From positions 1 to 13,354 of the forward strand of contig PWWF01000202.1 in NCBI GenBank assembly GCA_003561595.1: DNA of 13,354 nucleotides. Direction: 5' to 3'. Positions within the stretch are counted from its first letter, which is position 1. Each line of letters begins with the position of its first letter. This document shows positions 248 through 5,838 of the stretch, piece after piece. The translations under genes were made by a program, and so were the position numbers. This DNA is from Paracoccaceae bacterium. Lineage in GTDB: Bacteria; Pseudomonadota; Alphaproteobacteria; Rhodobacterales; Rhodobacteraceae. The notes below the pieces were generated by a model. That model searched no databases, was not told the origin of the DNA, and saw only the letters and a program-made list of their open reading frames with translations.

Positions 248-2629
248 ATGAGCGATTTCAATTCCGAACCCTCCCTTTCGGCCCGCGCCATGGCGGCGCG
301 GCCCGCGCCCTATCTGGACGGGCTGAACCCTGCGCAACGGCAGGCGGTCGAGGCGCTGGACGGCCCGGTGCTGATGCTGGCAGGCGCGGGCACCGGCAAG
401 ACCAAGGCGCTGACTGCGCGGATCGCGCATCTGCTGAATACGGGCCGCGCCTGGCCCTCGCAGATCCTGGCGGTGACCTTTACCAACAAGGCCGCGCGCG
501 AAATGAAGCTGCGTGTCGGCGGCTATCTGGGCGACGCGGTCGAGGGGATGCCCTGGCTGGGCACATTCCATTCGATCAGCGCGAAACTGCTGCGTCGGCA
601 TGCGGAACTGGTTGGGCTGAAATCCACCTTCACGATTCTGGACAGCGACGATCAGTTGCGGCTGCTGAAACAGTTGATCATTGCCGCGAATATCGATGAG
701 AAGCGCTGGCCTGCGCGGCTGATGGCCTCGATCATCGATCAGTGGAAGAACCGCGCCTGGCGGCCCGATCAGGTGCCCAGTTCCGAGGCGAGCGCCTTCA
801 ACAATCGCGGGACCGAGATCTATGCCGCCTATCAGGAGCGGCTGAAAACGCTGAATGCCTGCGATTTCGGCGATTTGCTGCTGCATTGCGTCAGCATCTT
901 TCAGGCGCACCCGGATGTGCTGGAAACCTATCAGAAACGGTTTCGCTATATTCTGGTGGACGAGTATCAGGACACGAATGTCGCGCAGTATCTGTGGCTG
1001 CGGCTGCTGGCATCGGGGCATCGTAATATCTGCTGCGTGGGGGATGATGACCAGTCGATCTATGGCTGGCGCGGGGCCGAGGTGGGCAATATCCTGCGCT
1101 TCGAGCGCGATTTCGAGGGCGCGACCGTCGTGCGGCTGGAACAGAATTACCGCTCGACCCCGCATATTCTGGCCGCGGCCGGGCAGGTCATCGCTGCCAA
1201 TGAGGGGCGGTTGGGCAAGACCCTGTGGACTGAGGCGCAGGACGGCGAGAAGGTCCGTCTGATCGGCCATTGGGATGGCGAGGAAGAGGCGCGCTGGATC
1301 GGCGAGCAGATCGAGGATCTGAGCCGCGGCACCCGCGGGCTGGACCCGTTCAGCCTGAATCAGGTGGCGGTATTGGTGCGCGCCAGCCACCAGATGCGCG
1401 CGTTCGAGGATCGGTTTCTGACCATCGGGATGCCCTATCGCGTGATCGGTGGCCCGCGATTCTATGAGCGGATGGAGATTCGTGATGCCATGGCCTATTT
1501 CCGCCTGGCGGTCAGCCCGGCGGATGATCTGGCGTTCGAGCGGGTCGTGAACACCCCCAAGCGGGGCTTGGGCGACAAGGCGCAGCAGACCATCCAGCGG
1601 ATCGCGCGCGCGCAGGGCCTGTCGCTGGTGCAGGGCGCCGCGCTGGCGATTGAAGAGGGCGCGATCAAGGGCAAGGGGGCAGGGCAGTTGCGCGCGCTGA
1701 TCGACGCGATTGCCCGCTGGCACGCGGCTGTCGGCACCACCGCGCCCGTGGCCGAGGATGACCTGATCGAGACGCTGGCGCCCAACCCCGCGCAGTCCCA
1801 TATCGAACTGGCCGAGGCGATCCTGGAGGAATCGGGCTATACCGAGATGTGGCTGAACGACAAGACGCCCGAGGCGCCGGGGCGGCTGGAGAATCTGAAG
1901 GAACTGATCAAGGCGCTGGAAGAATTCGACAATCTGCAGGGGTTTCTCGAACATGTCGCGCTGATCATGGATAATGACAGCGACGCGGCAGAGGCCAAGG
2001 TCACGATCATGACGCTGCATGGCGCCAAGGGGCTGGAATACCCCGTCGTGTTTCTGCCGGGATGGGAGGATGGCCTGTTCCCCTCGCAACGCTCGATGGA
2101 CGAATCGGGGCTGAAGGGCCTCGAGGAAGAGCGGCGGCTGGCCTATGTCGGGATCACCCGCGCCGAACAGCTTTGCACCATCAGCTTCGCGGCCAACCGG
2201 CGGGTATACGGGCAATGGCAGTCGCAGATGCCCTCGCGCTTTGTCGATGAACTGCCGTCCGAGCATGTCGAGGTGCTGACGCCACCGGGCCTTTATGGCG
2301 GGGGCATGGCCGGGGCCGCTACGTCCACCAATATCGAGGATCGTGCCACGCGGGCCGATGTCTACAACTCTCCGGGGTGGCGGCGGTTGCAGGCCTCCCA
2401 GCGCCGCCCCACCGCCCAGCCGCGAGAGGCGCGTGACATGGTGATCGACGCGACCGCTGCCCCGGCGCATGAGACAGGCGAGCGCGTCTTCCACCGCAAG
2501 TTCGGCTATGGCCGCGTCGAATCCGTCGATGGGGACAAGCTGTTCATCCGGTTCGAGAAATCGGGGCCGCGTCATGTCGTGGCAAAATTCGTCGTGCCTG
2601 CGGCGCAGGCCGATGATGTGCCATTCTGA
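248..2629 (+). CDS. pcrA: ATP-dependent DNA helicase, UvrD/PcrA family (superfamily 1A)
   Basis: This 793-residue protein is a 3'-5' DNA helicase/translocase of the type that unwinds nicked DNA in nucleotide-excision and mismatch repair and strips RecA from DNA. The SF1A motifs appear in order: the Q-motif region LNPAQRQAV, Walker A GAGTGKT with Lys51, TFTNKAA (Ia), Walker B VDEYQDTN with Asp238-Glu239, GDDDQSIYGWRGAE (III), LEQNYRST (IV), and near the C-terminus TIMTLHGAKGLEYPVVF (V) and EERRLAYVGITRA (VI). The last ~60 residues contain VFHRKFGYGRVESVDGD, the Tudor-like C-terminal domain that in PcrA/UvrD contacts RNA polymerase. Length and architecture are complete. The start at 248 lacks a clear ribosome binding site; an in-frame ATG at 290 is an alternative giving a protein 14 residues shorter. 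UvrD and PcrA are hard to tell apart by eye, so the symbol is provisional. Confidence 0.93.
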   Translation: MSDFNSEPSLSARAMAARPAPYLDGLNPAQRQAVEALDGPVLMLAGAGTGKTKALTARIAHLLNTGRAWPSQILAVTFTNKAAREMKLRVGGYLGDAVEGMPWLGTFHSISAKLLRRHAELVGLKSTFTILDSDDQLRLLKQLIIAANIDEKRWPARLMASIIDQWKNRAWRPDQVPSSEASAFNNRGTEIYAAYQERLKTLNACDFGDLLLHCVSIFQAHPDVLETYQKRFRYILVDEYQDTNVAQYLWLRLLASGHRNICCVGDDDQSIYGWRGAEVGNILRFERDFEGATVVRLEQNYRSTPHILAAAGQVIAANEGRLGKTLWTEAQDGEKVRLIGHWDGEEEARWIGEQIEDLSRGTRGLDPFSLNQVAVLVRASHQMRAFEDRFLTIGMPYRVIGGPRFYERMEIRDAMAYFRLAVSPADDLAFERVVNTPKRGLGDKAQQTIQRIARAQGLSLVQGAALAIEEGAIKGKGAGQLRALIDAIARWHAAVGTTAPVAEDDLIETLAPNPAQSHIELAEAILEESGYTEMWLNDKTPEAPGRLENLKELIKALEEFDNLQGFLEHVALIMDNDSDAAEAKVTIMTLHGAKGLEYPVVFLPGWEDGLFPSQRSMDESGLKGLEEERRLAYVGITRAEQLCTISFAANRRVYGQWQSQMPSRFVDELPSEHVEVLTPPGLYGGGMAGAATSTNIEDRATRADVYNSPGWRRLQASQRRPTAQPREARDMVIDATAAPAHETGERVFHRKFGYGRVESVDGDKLFIRFEKSGPRHVVAKFVVPAAQADDVPF

Positions 2630-2669
2630 GCACTGCCGATAACCATGTTCTGAGAATGAAGAAGGCGAC

Positions 2670-2732
2670 AGCCCCAGGGAGGAGGAGGGGGCTGCCGCCA
2701 ATCGTGCAAGACCCTGGGAGGAGGATCGGGCC
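2670..2732 (-). ncRNA. CcsR/cuckoo-type small RNA, third (promoter-distal) copy
   Basis: Read on the minus strand, two hairpins follow each other. The first pairs 2728-2732 with 2710-2714 (one G-U) and carries a variant loop, AUCCUCCUCCC (2716-2726). The second has a perfect six-base-pair stem, AGCCCC (2688-2693) with GGGGCU (2670-2675), around CUCCUCCUCCC (2677-2687). The loops are 39 bases apart. Paired hairpins with CCUCCUCCC loops downstream of a DUF1127 gene define the cuckoo RNA family, called CcsR in Rhodobacter sphaeroides. No uracil tract follows; the next bases are only pyrimidine-rich (CUUCUUCAUUCUC), so the exact 3' end is uncertain. Confidence 0.75.
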
Positions 2733-2942
2733 TTTGCATCTGTCGGGCCAATGGCCCTATCTTCATGAAACGTCCGGCCAGGGAGGAGGAGGGCCAGATC
2801 GTCTCAACGAACGCCCCAGGGAGGAGGAGGGGGCGCACGTTCCGTGCCGGTTACAGACAAGTGCTGCCTGTCCCGGAATATGGGGCGATGACCAAGGGAG
2901 GAGGAGTGGCCATCGCCGCGATCGGACCCCAGGGAGGAGGAG
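2677..2942 (-). repeat. Six interspersed CTCCTCCTCCC repeats (loop motifs of the sRNA array)
   Basis: On the plus strand GGGAGGAGGAG occurs at 2677-2687, 2716-2726 (last base T), 2781-2791, 2819-2829, 2896-2906 and 2932-2942. Start-to-start spacings are 39, 65, 38, 77 and 36, a short-long alternation that marks three pairs. Each copy sits in the loop of a short GC-rich stem. On the transcribed minus strand the motif resembles the anti-Shine-Dalgarno end of 16S rRNA and could pair with GGAGG-type ribosome binding sites; that use is inferred. Confidence 0.9.
2774..2835 (-). ncRNA. CcsR/cuckoo-type small RNA, second copy
   Basis: On the minus strand, a perfect six-base-pair stem CGCCCC (2830-2835) with GGGGCG (2812-2817) encloses CUCCUCCUCCC (2819-2829). 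A second stem, CUGGCC (2792-2797) with GGCCGG (2774-2779, one U-G pair), encloses the same motif at 2781-2791. The loops are 38 bases apart. This is the most regular of the three copies. A 54-base linker (2836-2889) separates it from the first RNA and a 41-base linker (2733-2773) from the third. In R. sphaeroides the related RNAs are cut from a shared transcript with the DUF1127 mRNA and act in oxidative and heat stress; that role here is inferred by homology. Confidence 0.8.
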
Positions 2943-2950
2943 GGGGGCCG
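2890..2950 (-). ncRNA. CcsR/cuckoo-type small RNA, first (gene-proximal) copy
   Basis: The first hairpin (2923-2950) pairs CGGCCCC with GGGGUCCG, leaving one bulged U, around CUCCUCCUCCC (2932-2942). The second (2890-2911) pairs GGCCA with UGGUC around the motif at 2896-2906. The loops are 36 bases apart. The first stem begins only seven bases after the stop codon of the DUF1127 gene, so the RNA must come from the same transcript or be processed from its 3' end. The compensating base changes between the stems of the six hairpins, against an almost invariant loop, argue that RNA structure rather than protein coding is being conserved. Confidence 0.78.
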
Positions 2951-2957
2951 AAAGCCT

Positions 2958-3170
2958 TTATTTCTTGTACGCCGCTTCCTGTGCGAGGCGCGTGATCATC
3001 GATCGGCTGATGCCCAGATCGTCCAGTTCGCGCGTACTCAGCTGCGAAAGCTCAGCGTGGGTCCGATTGTACACCCGACGACGCGTAATCCAGAGCCTGA
3101 TCCGCGCCAGAATGTCATTTGCAGCCCCGCCTTGGCGTTCGATGCCGATTGTTTCAGCAATATGTGCCAT
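2958..3170 (-). CDS. Small DUF1127 protein, CcaF1-like, host gene of the sRNA array
   Basis: The 70-residue protein has the DUF1127 core near its C-terminus: RRRVYNRTHAELSQLSTREL followed by DDLGISRSMI (about residues 30-60). It is small, arginine-rich and has no signal or membrane segment. DUF1127 proteins are common in alpha- and gammaproteobacteria. In R. sphaeroides the homologous gene (RSP_6037, CcaF1) is co-transcribed with the CcsR RNAs from a stress sigma-factor promoter and its product has been reported to bind RNA and affect sRNA maturation. The gene order here (DUF1127, then three CCUCCUCCC RNAs) is the same, so the same partnership is likely. The start at 3168-3170 has AAAGG (3181-3185) ten bases upstream, a slightly long spacing. 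The 70-residue length is usual for the longer DUF1127 members. Confidence 0.88.
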   Translation of the reverse strand: MAHIAETIGIERQGGAANDILARIRLWITRRRVYNRTHAELSQLSTRELDDLGISRSMITRLAQEAAYKK

Positions 3171-3521
3171 CGATATGCTACCTTTGTCTTGCGGCGATCT
3201 CCAAGACAGCTACCCGCCGCTTCGTTGAAACAAAGATAGCAACTTGCTGCGCCTGCACAATGGCTGATGCTGCAATGCGGCTATGCGCTAGAGGAATGTT
3301 TACCCTAGGTAATTTTCGATCTGCCCGCTGTTTGATCCGAGTGCGGGAGAATTACGCAAAACAGATGAGGAATTATCCCGAATGCGGCGAATTGGGGGCT
3401 GCAGAATGCCGTTATGGGGTCTGTGCCGGTCGCCTGCGAAGGCGTCAGGCGGTCAATTCGCCCTTGCTGTCTGGCTCGAAATGCCCATTTTGCTTTGGAA
3501 AGCTGGAACAGGATGTCTGAT
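3171..3521. other. Divergent intergenic region between the DUF1127 gene and mrp
   Basis: These 351 bases contain the candidate DUF1127 promoter on the minus strand and must contain the mrp promoter on the plus strand, for which I see no confident -35/-10 pair. A small inverted repeat, CGCCTG/CAGGCG, lies at 3431-3451 without a T-tract. Open frames run through part of it, including an in-frame extension of mrp back to 3414, but they have no ribosome binding site and no recognisable protein sequence. Confidence 0.45.
3233..3260 (-). promoter_or_regulatory. Candidate promoter of the DUF1127-sRNA operon
   Basis: On the minus strand TTGTGC (3255-3260) and TATCTT (3233-3238) are separated by 16 bases. 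Transcription would begin near 3226, giving a 5' leader of about 55 bases before the DUF1127 ATG. In R. sphaeroides the equivalent operon is driven by the heat-shock sigma factors RpoHI/RpoHII. By eye I cannot say whether this site is of RpoH or housekeeping type. Confidence 0.35.
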
Positions 3522-4601
3522 ATGGCGGTGTCGCGCGACGCGATTCTGGATGCGCTGAAACATGTCACATTGCCGGATGGCGGCGATCTGGTGTCTCGAA
3601 ACCTGATACGCGCCTTGACGATAGAGGCGGGCGCCGTGCGGTTCGTGATCGATGCCGAAACGCCAGACCGCGCGCGCGCTCTGGGCGAGGTGCGCGGCGC
3701 CGCCGAATCCGCGATCCGGGCGCTGGACGGGGTGACGCAGGTCTCTGTCGCGCTGACAGCGCACGGCCCCGCCGCCAAAGGCAAGGGCGCCGCACCGGGG
3801 CTGAAGCTGGGCCGCCACCCGACCGAGACATCGGGCAAGCAGAGTGTTCCGGGCGTGCAGCACATCATTGCAATTGGTTCGGGCAAGGGCGGGGTCGGCA
3901 AATCGACCGTGGCCAGCAATCTGGCCGTCGCGCTGGCGCGGCTGGGCGTGCGCGTCGGGCTTCTGGATGCCGATATATATGGTCCCAGCCAGCCGCGCAT
4001 GATGGGGGTCGAACGCAAGCCCGGCTCGCCCGATGGCAAGACGATCATCCCGCTGCAGGCGCATGGGGTCACGATGATCTCTATCGGCTTGCTGCTGAAA
4101 GAGGATGAGGCCGTGATCTGGCGTGGTCCGATGCTGATGGGCGCGCTGCAGCAATTGCTGACCCAGGTCGAATGGGGCGCACTGGATGTGCTGCTGGTCG
4201 ATATGCCGCCGGGCACGGGCGATATTCAGCTTACATTATGCTCCAAATTCGATGTGCGCGGCGCGATTGTCGTCTCAACCCCGCAGGATGTGGCGCTACT
4301 GGATGCGCGCAAGGCCCTGCGCGCGTTCCAGACGCTGAAAACCCCGGTGCTGGGCCTGATCGAGAATATGTCGACCTTTATCTGTCCCAAATGCGGACAT
4401 GAGGAGCATATCTTTGGCGAAGGCGGCGTCCAGCGCGAGGCCGAGAAACAGGGGCTGAGCTTTCTGGGCGAATTGCCCCTGAGTGTCGAGGTCCGGCTGG
4501 CCAGCGATAGCGGGATGCCCGTCGCGGCGACTGACAGCCCCGTCGCGCGCGCCTATGAGCGGATGGCAACCCGCGTGATCGAGGCCATCGGCACGCGCTG
4601 A
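3522..4601 (+). CDS. mrp: Iron-sulfur cluster carrier ATPase, Mrp/ApbC (NBP35 family)
   Basis: The protein carries and delivers [4Fe-4S] clusters to apo-enzymes in the cytoplasm, driven by nucleotide binding. Residues ~1-85 form a MIP18/DUF59-type domain (SRDAILDALKHVTLPDGGDL). The P-loop domain follows, with the deviant Walker A GSGKGGVGKST (signature Lys122, P-loop Lys127), then LLDADIYGPSQP and VDMPPGTGD. The cluster-binding CPKC is at Cys288/Cys291, inside STFICPKCGHEEHIFG. At 359 residues it is a normal length for the family. I chose the ATG at 3522 because AGGA (3510-3513) lies eight bases upstream and homologues typically start MxVSR. An ATG at 3513 (three residues longer) is possible; the extension to 3414 is unlikely. 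The gene points toward the dcw cluster but is separated from it by 709 bases. Confidence 0.93.
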   Translation: MAVSRDAILDALKHVTLPDGGDLVSRNLIRALTIEAGAVRFVIDAETPDRARALGEVRGAAESAIRALDGVTQVSVALTAHGPAAKGKGAAPGLKLGRHPTETSGKQSVPGVQHIIAIGSGKGGVGKSTVASNLAVALARLGVRVGLLDADIYGPSQPRMMGVERKPGSPDGKTIIPLQAHGVTMISIGLLLKEDEAVIWRGPMLMGALQQLLTQVEWGALDVLLVDMPPGTGDIQLTLCSKFDVRGAIVVSTPQDVALLDARKALRAFQTLKTPVLGLIENMSTFICPKCGHEEHIFGEGGVQREAEKQGLSFLGELPLSVEVRLASDSGMPVAATDSPVARAYERMATRVIEAIGTR

Positions 4602-4620
4602 GCCTGTTTTCGCACGGATT

Positions 4621-4670
4621 CGGGATTTCATGGAATCCGGTCGCGGAAAGTTCCGGGATTTCATGGAATC
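4621..4670. repeat. Direct repeat of CGGGATTTCATGGAATC, two copies 33 bases apart
   Basis: Identical 17-base copies lie at 4621-4637 and 4654-4670, starts 33 bases apart (about three helical turns). The core GATTTCATGGAATC is an imperfect palindrome (12 of 14 positions symmetric) and ends in a GANTC site. Both copies also show CGGGA and TGGAA ten bases apart, a spacing like that of MraZ boxes, and share ATTTCATGG with the site at 5023-5047 on the other strand. It looks like a tandem operator; the binding protein is unknown. Confidence 0.7.
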
Positions 4671-4703
4671 TGCCGATATCCCACGTTCACGGCCATTCCC
4701 GAA

Positions 4704-4725
4704 CGAATCACTGCGCTGTGATTCG
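4704..4725. repeat. Perfect inverted repeat CGAATCAC-N6-GTGATTCG
   Basis: Eight-base arms at 4704-4711 and 4718-4725 flank TGCGCT. Each arm contains one GANTC site, so methylation would change both halves symmetrically. As RNA it could fold into a hairpin, but no T-tract follows, so a protein-binding site seems as likely as a terminator. Confidence 0.6.
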
Positions 4726-4799
4726 GCGTGAATCGCCGTTCACACGCATGTTTTCAGGTCGAGAGCGCGTTGAGACTCCGGAATGAGCGGCGGATTCTG

Positions 4800-4808
4800 T
4801 GCTATATC
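4800..4808 (+). promoter_or_regulatory. Possible extended -10 promoter element
   Basis: TGCTATATC matches the extended -10 form TGnTATAAT fairly well and lies three bases after a GANTC site (4793-4797). No good -35 is found at the usual distance. If used, the mraZ leader would be about 500 bases long. Weak evidence. Confidence 0.2.
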
Positions 4809-4944
4809 GGCAACAAAAACCGCTCTTCCAAAACTTTCGTGGAATCTTGTGGAACATCGCAGTTTGGGCTGCGCGTGTATGGCTATGGCTAGTATATCGG
4901 TTAGTTCCTGTAATGTTCGCACAATATATAGTTGAGATTGGAGG

Positions 4945-4979
4945 ATATCCACAGGATGCTGTGGGTAATTTGTGGAAAG
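4945..4979. promoter_or_regulatory. Cluster of DnaA-box-like sequences
   Basis: ATATCCACA at 4945-4953 matches the DnaA box TTATCCACA in eight of nine positions. TGTGGGTAA at 4960-4968 is its reverse-strand counterpart TTACCCACA, also eight of nine. TGTGGAAAG (4971-4979) and TGTGGAACA (4849-4857) match in seven. The first two form an inverted repeat, CCACAG-GATG-CTGTGG (4949-4964), beside an AT-rich stretch (4890-4935). This could bind DnaA as a transcription factor or be part of an origin; neither is shown. Confidence 0.45.
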
Positions 4980-5014
4980 CCGTAACACCCTTTCGCGACA
5001 CAAGATGATCTTTT

Positions 5015-5043
5015 TTGTTGCTGCCCATGAAATTCCATGGCAT
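5015..5043 (+). promoter_or_regulatory. Candidate promoter for the sRNA leader and the dcw cluster
   Basis: TTGTTG (5015-5020), a 17-base spacer and TGGCAT (5038-5043) form a mediocre promoter. It would start transcription near 5050, giving a leader of about 260 bases and a terminated RNA of about 210 bases, sizes close to those I recall for the R. sphaeroides dcw leader and UpsM. The -10 is poor, so the call depends mainly on that agreement and the overlapping MraZ-like boxes. Confidence 0.3.
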
Positions 5044-5047
5044 CCCA
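5023..5047 (-). promoter_or_regulatory. Candidate MraZ operator: three boxes with a 10-base period
   Basis: Read on the minus strand, TGGGA (5043-5047), TGGAA (5033-5037) and TGGGC (5023-5027) are each separated by exactly five bases. The MraZ box of E. coli is a set of TGGGN repeats with five-base spacers upstream of mraZ, so the spacing and two of three boxes fit exactly and the middle box has one change. The site lies 264 bases before the mraZ start and overlaps the best promoter candidate, which fits autorepression of the cluster. The boxes are on the strand opposite to the gene, which is a caveat. Confidence 0.5.
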
Positions 5048-5049
5048 TT

Positions 5050-5259
5050 GAGCAAGATAAACGGGCAGTAAGGGGCAGCTAAAGACCCCACCGAGGCAGA
5101 GTTTCATACAGGCACCCCGCTTATCTGAACAAATAGATCCGGCGCGCTCGCGAGCAGCATTCCCCCTCCCCCAAGGAGCGAGCGTCAACCGGGCACCCAG
5201 CGATGGGACAGTCGGCGGATCGGGCAGTGGCAGCAGCTCGATCCGCCGTTTTCATTTTT
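5050..5259 (+). ncRNA. Probable small RNA in the dcw leader, UpsM-like
   Basis: A strong intrinsic terminator (5213-5259) lies between the upstream region and the mraZ start, so transcripts entering mraZ must read through it and those that stop would leave a stable RNA. In R. sphaeroides exactly this arrangement yields the abundant sRNA UpsM ('upstream sRNA of mraZ'), made by partial termination in the dcw leader and cut by RNase E under stress. The region also folds a seven-base-pair stem CGCTCGC (5145-5151) with GCGAGCG (5178-5184), displaying a loop with CCCCCTCCCCC (5162-5172). The 3' end is well supported; the 5' end is an estimate. Confidence 0.55.
5213..5259 (+). terminator. Intrinsic terminator upstream of mraZ
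   Basis: Perfect ten-base arms CGGCGGATCG (5213-5222) and CGATCCGCCG (5239-5248) enclose a 16-base loop and are followed by TTTTCATTTTT (5249-5259). This is the best terminator in the window. It sits 52 bases before the mraZ start codon, pointing into the operon, so it is more likely an attenuator or the end of a leader sRNA than the terminator of mrp. Confidence 0.85.
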
Positions 5260-5310
5260 GCGGCCCGCGATACGCGTGCGCGGCCCCGCGACAGAGAGAG
5301 GAACCGCCGG

Positions 5311-5838
5311 TTGGTTTCGCGCAGGTTCAGAAGCACGTTCCACCAGAAGGTGGATGGCAAGGGTCGCGTCTCGATCCCTGCCACCTTCCGGCGCGTGATT
5401 GAACTTGGCGACCCGGACTGGAAAGAGGGCCTGCGCCCCAATTTCATCATCGTCTACGGGATGGAGTATCAGCAGCGGCTGGACTGCTTCACGCTGGACG
5501 GGATGGAAGAGATCTACGAGCGCATCGACCTGATGCATCCGGGATCGGAAGAGCGCGAAGAGATGGAGCTGATCTATAACTCCTACTCGCTGGACGCGCA
5601 GATCGACGATGACGGGCGCATCATCCTGCCGCAGATGCTGCGCGACAAGCTGGAGCTGGAGCCCGATGAAAAGGCGCGCTTCATGGGGCGCAACGATCAT
5701 TTCCAGATCTGGAAGGACGCGACTTTCAACGCGGCCTATGCCGAACAGAATGTGCGGATGAAGGTCGGTCGCGCCCCGCAATACGACCCGCGCATCAAGA
5801 TGCCGGCCAAGCCGCGCGGCGTGCCAACGGAAAGCTGA
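5311..5838 (+). CDS. mraZ: MraZ, transcriptional regulator of the division and cell-wall cluster
   Basis: MraZ is a DNA-binding protein that assembles into rings of subunits and regulates its own dcw operon. Two AbrB/SpoVT-like half-domains are visible: [16 protein letters not shown] at about residues 13-28, and [18 protein letters not shown] around Gly102-Arg103. I place the start at the TTG at 5311 (encoding [18 protein letters not shown]), because AGGAA (5299-5303) is seven bases upstream and family members begin with a short RRFRG-like stretch. The open frame runs back in phase to an ATG at 5203, but that would translate through the terminator hairpin. The 175-residue product is somewhat longer than E. 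coli MraZ (about 152), with a basic C-terminal tail ([13 protein letters not shown]). rsmH starts two bases after its stop, so the genes are co-transcribed. Confidence 0.92.

Follow-up and report, generated by a model that had tools for sequence, protein, structure and literature searches.

The window analysed here, a stretch of 13,354 nucleotides from a Paracoccaceae bacterium, carries an ordinary and well-conserved operon of the ccaF1-CcsR (CIN1) type, in which a DUF1127 gene is followed by three pairs of hairpins with anti-Shine-Dalgarno (anti-SD) loops and whose units stay under the cut-off of Rfam CcsR1. The locus itself is of a known kind and the new part is its predicted link to PhaR, since two PhaR-like boxes are conserved in the promoter across the family and are lost where PhaR and PHB synthase are lost. 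The promoter therefore suggests when the anti-SD RNAs may be made and would tie them to a PHB sensor.

Locus and genomic setting

The window spans an entire contig of a 3.3 Mb genome assembled in 440 contigs. The operon is present on the minus strand, with uvrD (248-2629, plus) and an mrp-type gene (3414-4601, plus) on its two sides, and the first loop of the array lies 15 nt past the DUF1127 stop codon. The relatives of the same genus are called here the Roseinatronobacter group, for which 36 genomes including our own were sampled, 32 having a DUF1127 match, and 30 loci were fetched. The DUF1127 protein closest to that of the window (96%) is from the MAG GEM2.Bin58, and in 14 aligned proteins of the genus, that of the window among them, 22 of the 70 columns do not vary. 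On comparing by eye the 26 other genomes with both positions known, the DUF1127 match was found within 5 kb of uvrD in 13. The features of the locus are collected in Table 1.

Table 1. Features of the DUF1127-anti-SD operon and its promoter, with positions in the window
Feature	Position	Strand	Basis
DUF1127 gene, CcaF1-like, 70 aa	2958..3170	minus	PF06568, E 5.1e-13
Unit 1, hairpin 1 (loop 2931-2943)	2922..2951	minus	fold; helix 1: both-sided changes in 4/6 pairs
Unit 1, hairpin 2 (loop 2895-2906)	2884..2917	minus	fold; helix 2: both-sided changes in 8/10 pairs, 98.9% cells paired
Spacer hairpin, units 1/2	2847..2876	minus	fold; helices 3-4: both-sided changes in 4/7 pairs
Unit 2, hairpin 3 (loop 2818-2829)	2806..2841	minus	fold; helix 5: both-sided changes in 3/10 pairs, 81.2% cells paired, weakest helix
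Unit 2, hairpin 4 (loop 2780-2791)	2767..2805	minus	fold; helices 6-7: both-sided changes in 8/10 pairs
Spacer hairpin, units 2/3	2745..2757	minus	fold; helix 8: both-sided changes in 3/5 pairs
Unit 3, hairpin 5 (loop 2715-2727)	2705..2738	minus	fold; helix 9: both-sided changes in 2/6 pairs; within Rfam CcsR1 match 2660-2744
Unit 3, hairpin 6 (loop 2676-2687), 12-bp stem and U-rich tail	2664..2699	minus	fold; helix 10: both-sided changes in 5/12 pairs, 100% cells paired
Probable -10, TATCTT	3233..3238	minus	conservation of 90% or more across the 30 aligned upstream regions; forms like CCATCT or CCATGT elsewhere in the family
PhaR-like box 2, TGCAGGCGCAGCA, overlaps -35	3245..3257	minus	element TGCAN3GCAGCA
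Probable RpoH-type -35, TTGTGC	3255..3260	minus	upstream alignment and family promoters
PhaR-like box 1, AGCCGCATTGCAGCA	3268..3282	minus	best match of phasin-box weight matrix; score reached in 0/11 further windows at this locus; p 0.050 by shuffling
ATGC-N7-GCAT dyad, degenerate copy with one mismatch, LysR-type look	3283..3297	minus	family comparison
Inverted repeat TTACCTAGGGTAA (TTACC-N3-GGTAA), putative regulator site	3300..3312	minus	conserved in Roseinatronobacter; TTCCC..GGGAA in some loci

Hairpin array and covariation

The motif CTCCTCC has 12 copies in the window, 11 of these inside six minus-strand loops (2678-2687, 2717-2723, 2782-2791, 2820-2829, 2897-2906 and 2933-2942; the loop at 2717-2723, the fifth, has a single copy), and in shuffled windows its mean count is 1.89 and the largest 6, so that none of the 200 shuffles reach 12. 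The loop starts are 36, 77, 38, 68 and 36 nt apart, in agreement with the distances of 36-39 within and 65-77 between pairs given in the preliminary description, whose six loops on six GC-rich stems, set in three pairs behind a DUF1127 gene, are likewise recovered by loop position, fold and the PF06568 match. The elements were found in the span of 2670..3170 assigned to them there, except that the last stem reaches 2664 and so lies slightly outside. The array of 308 nt folds at -140.7 kcal/mol (z = -5.69), with none of 100 shuffles equally low. The earlier account is extended by two conserved spacer hairpins that separate the pairs, and the one between units 2 and 3 has TTCG in its loop region in a number of relatives in the genus alignment. 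Hairpin 6 is probably the terminator of the array. A scan of 2600-5400 lists 4 terminator-like sites, among them its stem with the CTTCATTCTC tail, where shuffles give 2.0 on average, and a T-rich tail is also seen after the last hairpin in the aligned rows of the genus.

An alignment of 27 arrays of the genus, including the window, was used for covariation, from which L067 was excluded because its contig ends within the array. In the resulting structure of 66 pairs, 93.1% of the cells are paired and both-sided changes are seen in 37 of the 66 pairs, a value that none of 500 shuffles matched, and the stems earlier drawn for the window are thereby supported in its relatives. Pairing falls to about 50% when the partner is slid by one column, a comparison in which our structure is favoured, as it was drawn partly by hand from the same 27 sequences. 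An independent covariance model (R2) was made from 32 loci of other genera, taking the last loop pair of each out of 62 at hand, and has no rows of the genus of the window; it was used since a first model, R1, kept one hairpin only. R2 finds three units in the window with 71.2, 59.5 and 50.3 bits (E 1.7e-14, 5.4e-12 and 4.8e-10). With Rfam CcsR1 (RF02791) the scores are 46.8, 29.6 and 24.6 bits, the best being for pair 3 (E 5.5e-9), and the gathering score of 65.3 is not reached, while the relatives L076 and L232 score 104; Rfam ar14 (RF02344) gives 46.0 and 41.3 bits against a gathering score of 58.8, with the first match crossing a unit border. The cuckoo/CcsR assignment and the R. sphaeroides-type operon design of the preliminary description are upheld by the three R2 units and the published ccaF1-CcsR/CIN1 layout, with the unreached CcsR1 gathering score as a point against.

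Nine further exact CTCCTCCTCC sites in the genome gave no R2 unit (best E 0.66 and 0.89), in a search that variant-loop arrays would escape. Other R2 matches at 5144-5259 on the plus strand (15.5 bits, E 0.012) and at the overlapping phasin/PhaR loci L161 and L164 (E 0.024) were taken as chance or terminator-like.

Copy number

Six exact CTCCTCC loops are present in 28 of the 30 genus loci, the remaining two being L040, which is cut by a contig end, and L041, which has five. When TTCCTCC is allowed, six loops are found in the latter also (listed as L066, the same locus), so that all 29 untruncated genus loci, window included, have three pairs. The earlier suggestion that three copies are specific to the lineage is therefore correct for the genus, and other genera differ. 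Across the family, two or more loops were seen at 82 loci, the window among them; the count is even in 59 and odd in 23, ranges from 2 to 15 and is most often 8 or 6, all by a regular expression that misses variant loops. In one locus (L251), cuckoo-like units are seen on both the upstream and the downstream side of the DUF1127 gene.

Promoter layout

The region at about 3230-3312 was not part of the preliminary description. By eye, the approximately 80 nt 5′ of the ATG seem better conserved than the N-terminal half of the protein. In the window, CCGCATTGCAG of box 1 has one mismatch to CTGCN3GCAG, and compared with other genera the box sits about 10 nt closer to the RpoH-like -35 (ATTGTGC). 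Of 80 array promoters, 72 could be anchored with a loose pattern. At positions where this pattern is open or half open, all 72 share the C that follows TTGTG as well as the G, A and A of GCAGCA. In 60 of the 72, a spacing of 23 or 24 nt separates the first T of TTG from the A of the -10-like xAT (23 in the window), as is expected from the RpoHI/RpoHII determinants. For R. sphaeroides, TTG at -35 and the A at -12 are reported as important in RpoHI/RpoHII promoters (PMC3441632), and a figure legend assigns such a promoter to the ccaF1-CcsR operon.

PhaR-like boxes across the family

PhaR is described, in the portions of the literature available to us, as a repressor in the absence of PHB that is sequestered on granules once PHB accumulates; its site in R. 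sphaeroides is given as CTGCNNNGCAG (PMC12542648), and the S. meliloti phaP1 and phaP2 promoters are reported with two PhaR sites each, flanking the -35. We found boxes of the TGCTGCRNYGCAGMA kind, usually two, in the phasin promoters of the genus and none at a weaker phasin-domain match (L156). A matrix was built from ten distinct phasin boxes, of which two (L159) are probably off-register, and its best match falls in the TGC-rich block at 57 of 59 DUF1127 promoters (the exceptions are L106 and L117, with low scores at L042 and L088), promoters that are not independent as 30 come from one genus. Of the other windows, 29 of 918 reach the score of their own locus. Shuffling the promoters gave p < 0.05 for box 1 alone in 39 of the 59 loci; such shuffles are a weak null for this box alone, and the argument rests instead on control windows and PhaR-less genomes.

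For this, mismatches were counted in the 300 nt 5′ of the matched domain, with 332 windows of the same loci as controls. The composite of CTGCN3GCAG and TGCAN3GCAGCA with at most 3 mismatches was found at 76 of the 79 array-linked loci of PhaR-bearing genera (39 of them perfect) as against 1 of 332 controls, and in L184, L205 and L222 it has at least 4 mismatches. Taken singly, exact CTGCN3GCAG is present in 50 of these 79 promoters and 1 of the controls, exact TGCAN3GCAGCA in 66 and none, and the exact ATGC-N7-GCAT dyad in 69 and none; with one mismatch allowed CTGCN3GCAG becomes common, in 57 of the 332 control windows. CTGCN3GCAG alone was taken from outside this promoter set; the other box and the dyad were defined post hoc from the promoters themselves, and therefore their enrichment is expected and the comparison with PhaR-less genomes is the test that matters.

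The idea that DUF1127 genes with no array would have no box was rejected, as 4 of 7 such loci have an exact CTGCN3GCAG. In 6 of these 7 at least a weak cuckoo unit was found by the covariance model (none at L182), so that the class is unusable as a negative control, and the regular expression misses variant arrays. At three loci with weak array matches (L235, L241 and L242), two tandem PhaR-like boxes lie right before the DUF1127 gene in the manner of a phasin promoter.

PhaR-less genomes

In two overlapping sets of family genomes, PhaR (PF07879) has a match in 241 of 246 and in 387 of 395. None of the 8 PhaR-less genomes of the larger set has a match to PhaC_N (PHB synthase), which was found in all four others searched (G000, G253, G281 and G165). 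A DUF1127 gene with an array is present in 5 of the 8, namely G062 and G403 of one genus, G193 and G459 of another, and G372, so that the PhaR-less genera with arrays are three only; a DUF1127 match was not found in G142, G182 and G330, and the array-less DUF1127 matches of PhaR-less genomes (L260, L262, L263 and L264) were kept outside the counts.

In the five PhaR-less promoters, CTGCN3GCAG has 2-3 mismatches and TGCAN3GCAGCA has 3, like control windows. Thus with at most one mismatch, CTGCN3GCAG is found in 75 of 79 PhaR-bearing but 0 of 5 PhaR-less promoters, and TGCAN3GCAGCA in 78 of 79 but 0 of 5. Counted by genus, where the PhaR-less value is 0 of 3, Fisher tests gave p of 4e-4 and 5e-5 respectively, and 1.5e-3 and 1.7e-4 if G165 is counted as PhaR-less. 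G165 is the exception, having no PhaR match and yet keeping both boxes; as its assembly is fragmented (590 contigs, 92% completeness) and PhaC is present, PhaR was possibly missed and may be absent from the assembly only.

A UvrD tree of 29 genomes (G161, the 30th, was excluded as its match is in two pieces) places G062 and G403 with the PhaR-bearing G260 (support 98/97), and G193 and G459 with the PhaR-bearing G105 (100/95). Both of these sisters have the boxes, exact in L174 and with one mismatch in box 1 in L177. The PhaR label needs 5 changes on the tree, of which at least 3 are forced by well-supported branches, G142 and G182 being long branches of unsure placement. The PhaR-less state therefore has more than one origin, and the separate lineages are a natural experiment that points to the two boxes. 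It goes with loss of the putative PhaR boxes but not of the promoter at large.

The retained dyad bears on the main alternative, in which a LysR-type regulator of the LsrB/VtlR kind, rather than PhaR, binds the TGC-rich block. Such a protein may read the dyad, because the promoter of NfeR1, another anti-SD RNA, is reported to hold a TGCA-N6-GCAT site bound by LsrB, and we found this motif exact in 73 of 79 PhaR-bearing promoters and 1 of 332 controls. But the exact ATGC-N7-GCAT dyad is kept in 5 of 5 PhaR-less promoters, all of which have lost both PhaR boxes, and this speaks against the alternative, although TGCA-N6-GCAT itself has one mismatch in all five, which counters the argument from the dyad. 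We regard a LysR-type regulator in place of PhaR as unlikely; most likely both PhaR and a LysR-type regulator act, through overlapping sites.

Proposed mechanism

We propose that a single transcript is made from the RpoH-type promoter, the 5′ gene of which would give a small DUF1127 RNA-binding protein, while RNase E would process the 3′ part, as it does in R. sphaeroides, to three sRNAs of two hairpins each. Their CUCCUCC loops would pair with the Shine-Dalgarno regions of mRNAs and lower translation, and the last hairpin would double as the transcription end. PhaR on the two boxes at the -35 would repress the operon when PHB is absent, and as PHB granules form PhaR would be drawn off and the operon would open. 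Taken as a whole, this explanation (a CIN1 operon, anti-SD RNAs, and PhaR repression lifted by PHB) appears to us a likely one. Such control would connect anti-SD RNAs, which in R. sphaeroides are reported to affect C1 metabolism and pyruvate dehydrogenase, with the sensor of PHB, into which the same acetyl-CoA is drained. On a wider scale, there is a reasonable chance, better than even, that across the Rhodobacteraceae the anti-SD arrays and DUF1127 are an output of PhaR, whereby a full carbon store would free the RNAs and adjust translation, in concert with RpoH and with a LysR-type protein reading the overlapping dyad.

The loops could instead be decoys of a C/U-binding protein and not antisense to Shine-Dalgarno sites, as the preliminary description also considered. 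Near-identical loops on changing stems, present in 2-15 copies in 82 loci, would suit the titration of a protein; we know of no C/U-binding partner, and for the relative NfeR1 the accessible text describes anti-SD seeds predicted on the ntrB mRNA and a seed mutant, which makes decoys rather improbable here. That the array consists of mere terminators or a chance low-complexity repeat, for which only the terminator look of the last hairpin speaks, is hardly credible given the shuffled windows (0 of 200), the covariation, the independent model and the three pairs in 29 of 29 untruncated genus loci.

Relation to known systems

The closest known system is ccaF1 (RSP_6037)-CcsR1-4 of R. sphaeroides, which shares with the window a DUF1127 gene followed by tandem RNAs, the two-hairpin CCUCCUCCC unit of the Rfam CcsR1 model, an RpoH-type promoter (putative here) and the terminal hairpin. 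It differs in having four units instead of three, and the units of the window are under the Rfam CcsR1 cut-off; the two spacer hairpins may be a further difference. Also, the accessible text on the R. sphaeroides operon makes no mention of PhaR boxes. CcaF1 is reported there as an RNA-binding protein that works with RNase E in CcsR maturation, and the reported effects of the CcsR RNAs concern flhR mRNA, C1 metabolism and pyruvate dehydrogenase. With respect to the cuckoo RNA family and CIN1 (Reinkensmeier and Giegerich 2015, as cited in the available part of PMC10253847), the window is a member from the Roseinatronobacter group. The ar14/NfeR1 RNA of Sinorhizobium meliloti likewise has several hairpins with the CCUCCUCCC anti-SD loop and the promoter motif TGCA-N6-GCAT, but it holds three hairpins in one RNA under LsrB and NtrC control whereas the window array is in pairs. 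Anti-SD targeting is reported for NfeR1, whose three seeds are those predicted to pair with ntrB mRNA, the seed mutant having been built as a test. The PhaR (AniA) regulon, comprising phasin genes and the sRNA MmgR, shares the paired TGC-rich boxes at the -35, and MmgR of S. meliloti is, by the text available, already known as PhaR-repressed. To our knowledge MmgR is of a different RNA family. No paper joining PhaR with CcsR, CcaF1 or a DUF1127-anti-SD operon was found among the matches listed, seen in part, and the primary CcsR/cuckoo papers (Billenkamp 2015, Reinkensmeier 2015, Grutzner 2021) or subscription journals could hold such a link.

Leader of the mraZ cluster

Downstream of the mrp-type gene, within 4602-5317 on the plus strand, lies the long leader of a cell-division cluster, in which a strong hairpin with a T-rich tail was placed by eye at 5214-5257, about 60 nt before mraZ. 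It resembles the UpsM terminator known from Rhodobacteraceae, and a simple terminator scan of 2600-5400 did not list it. The same leader has repeated TTTCATGGAATC and GTGGAATC words at 4622-4690 and about 4838-4860 (plus), which are possible regulator sites.
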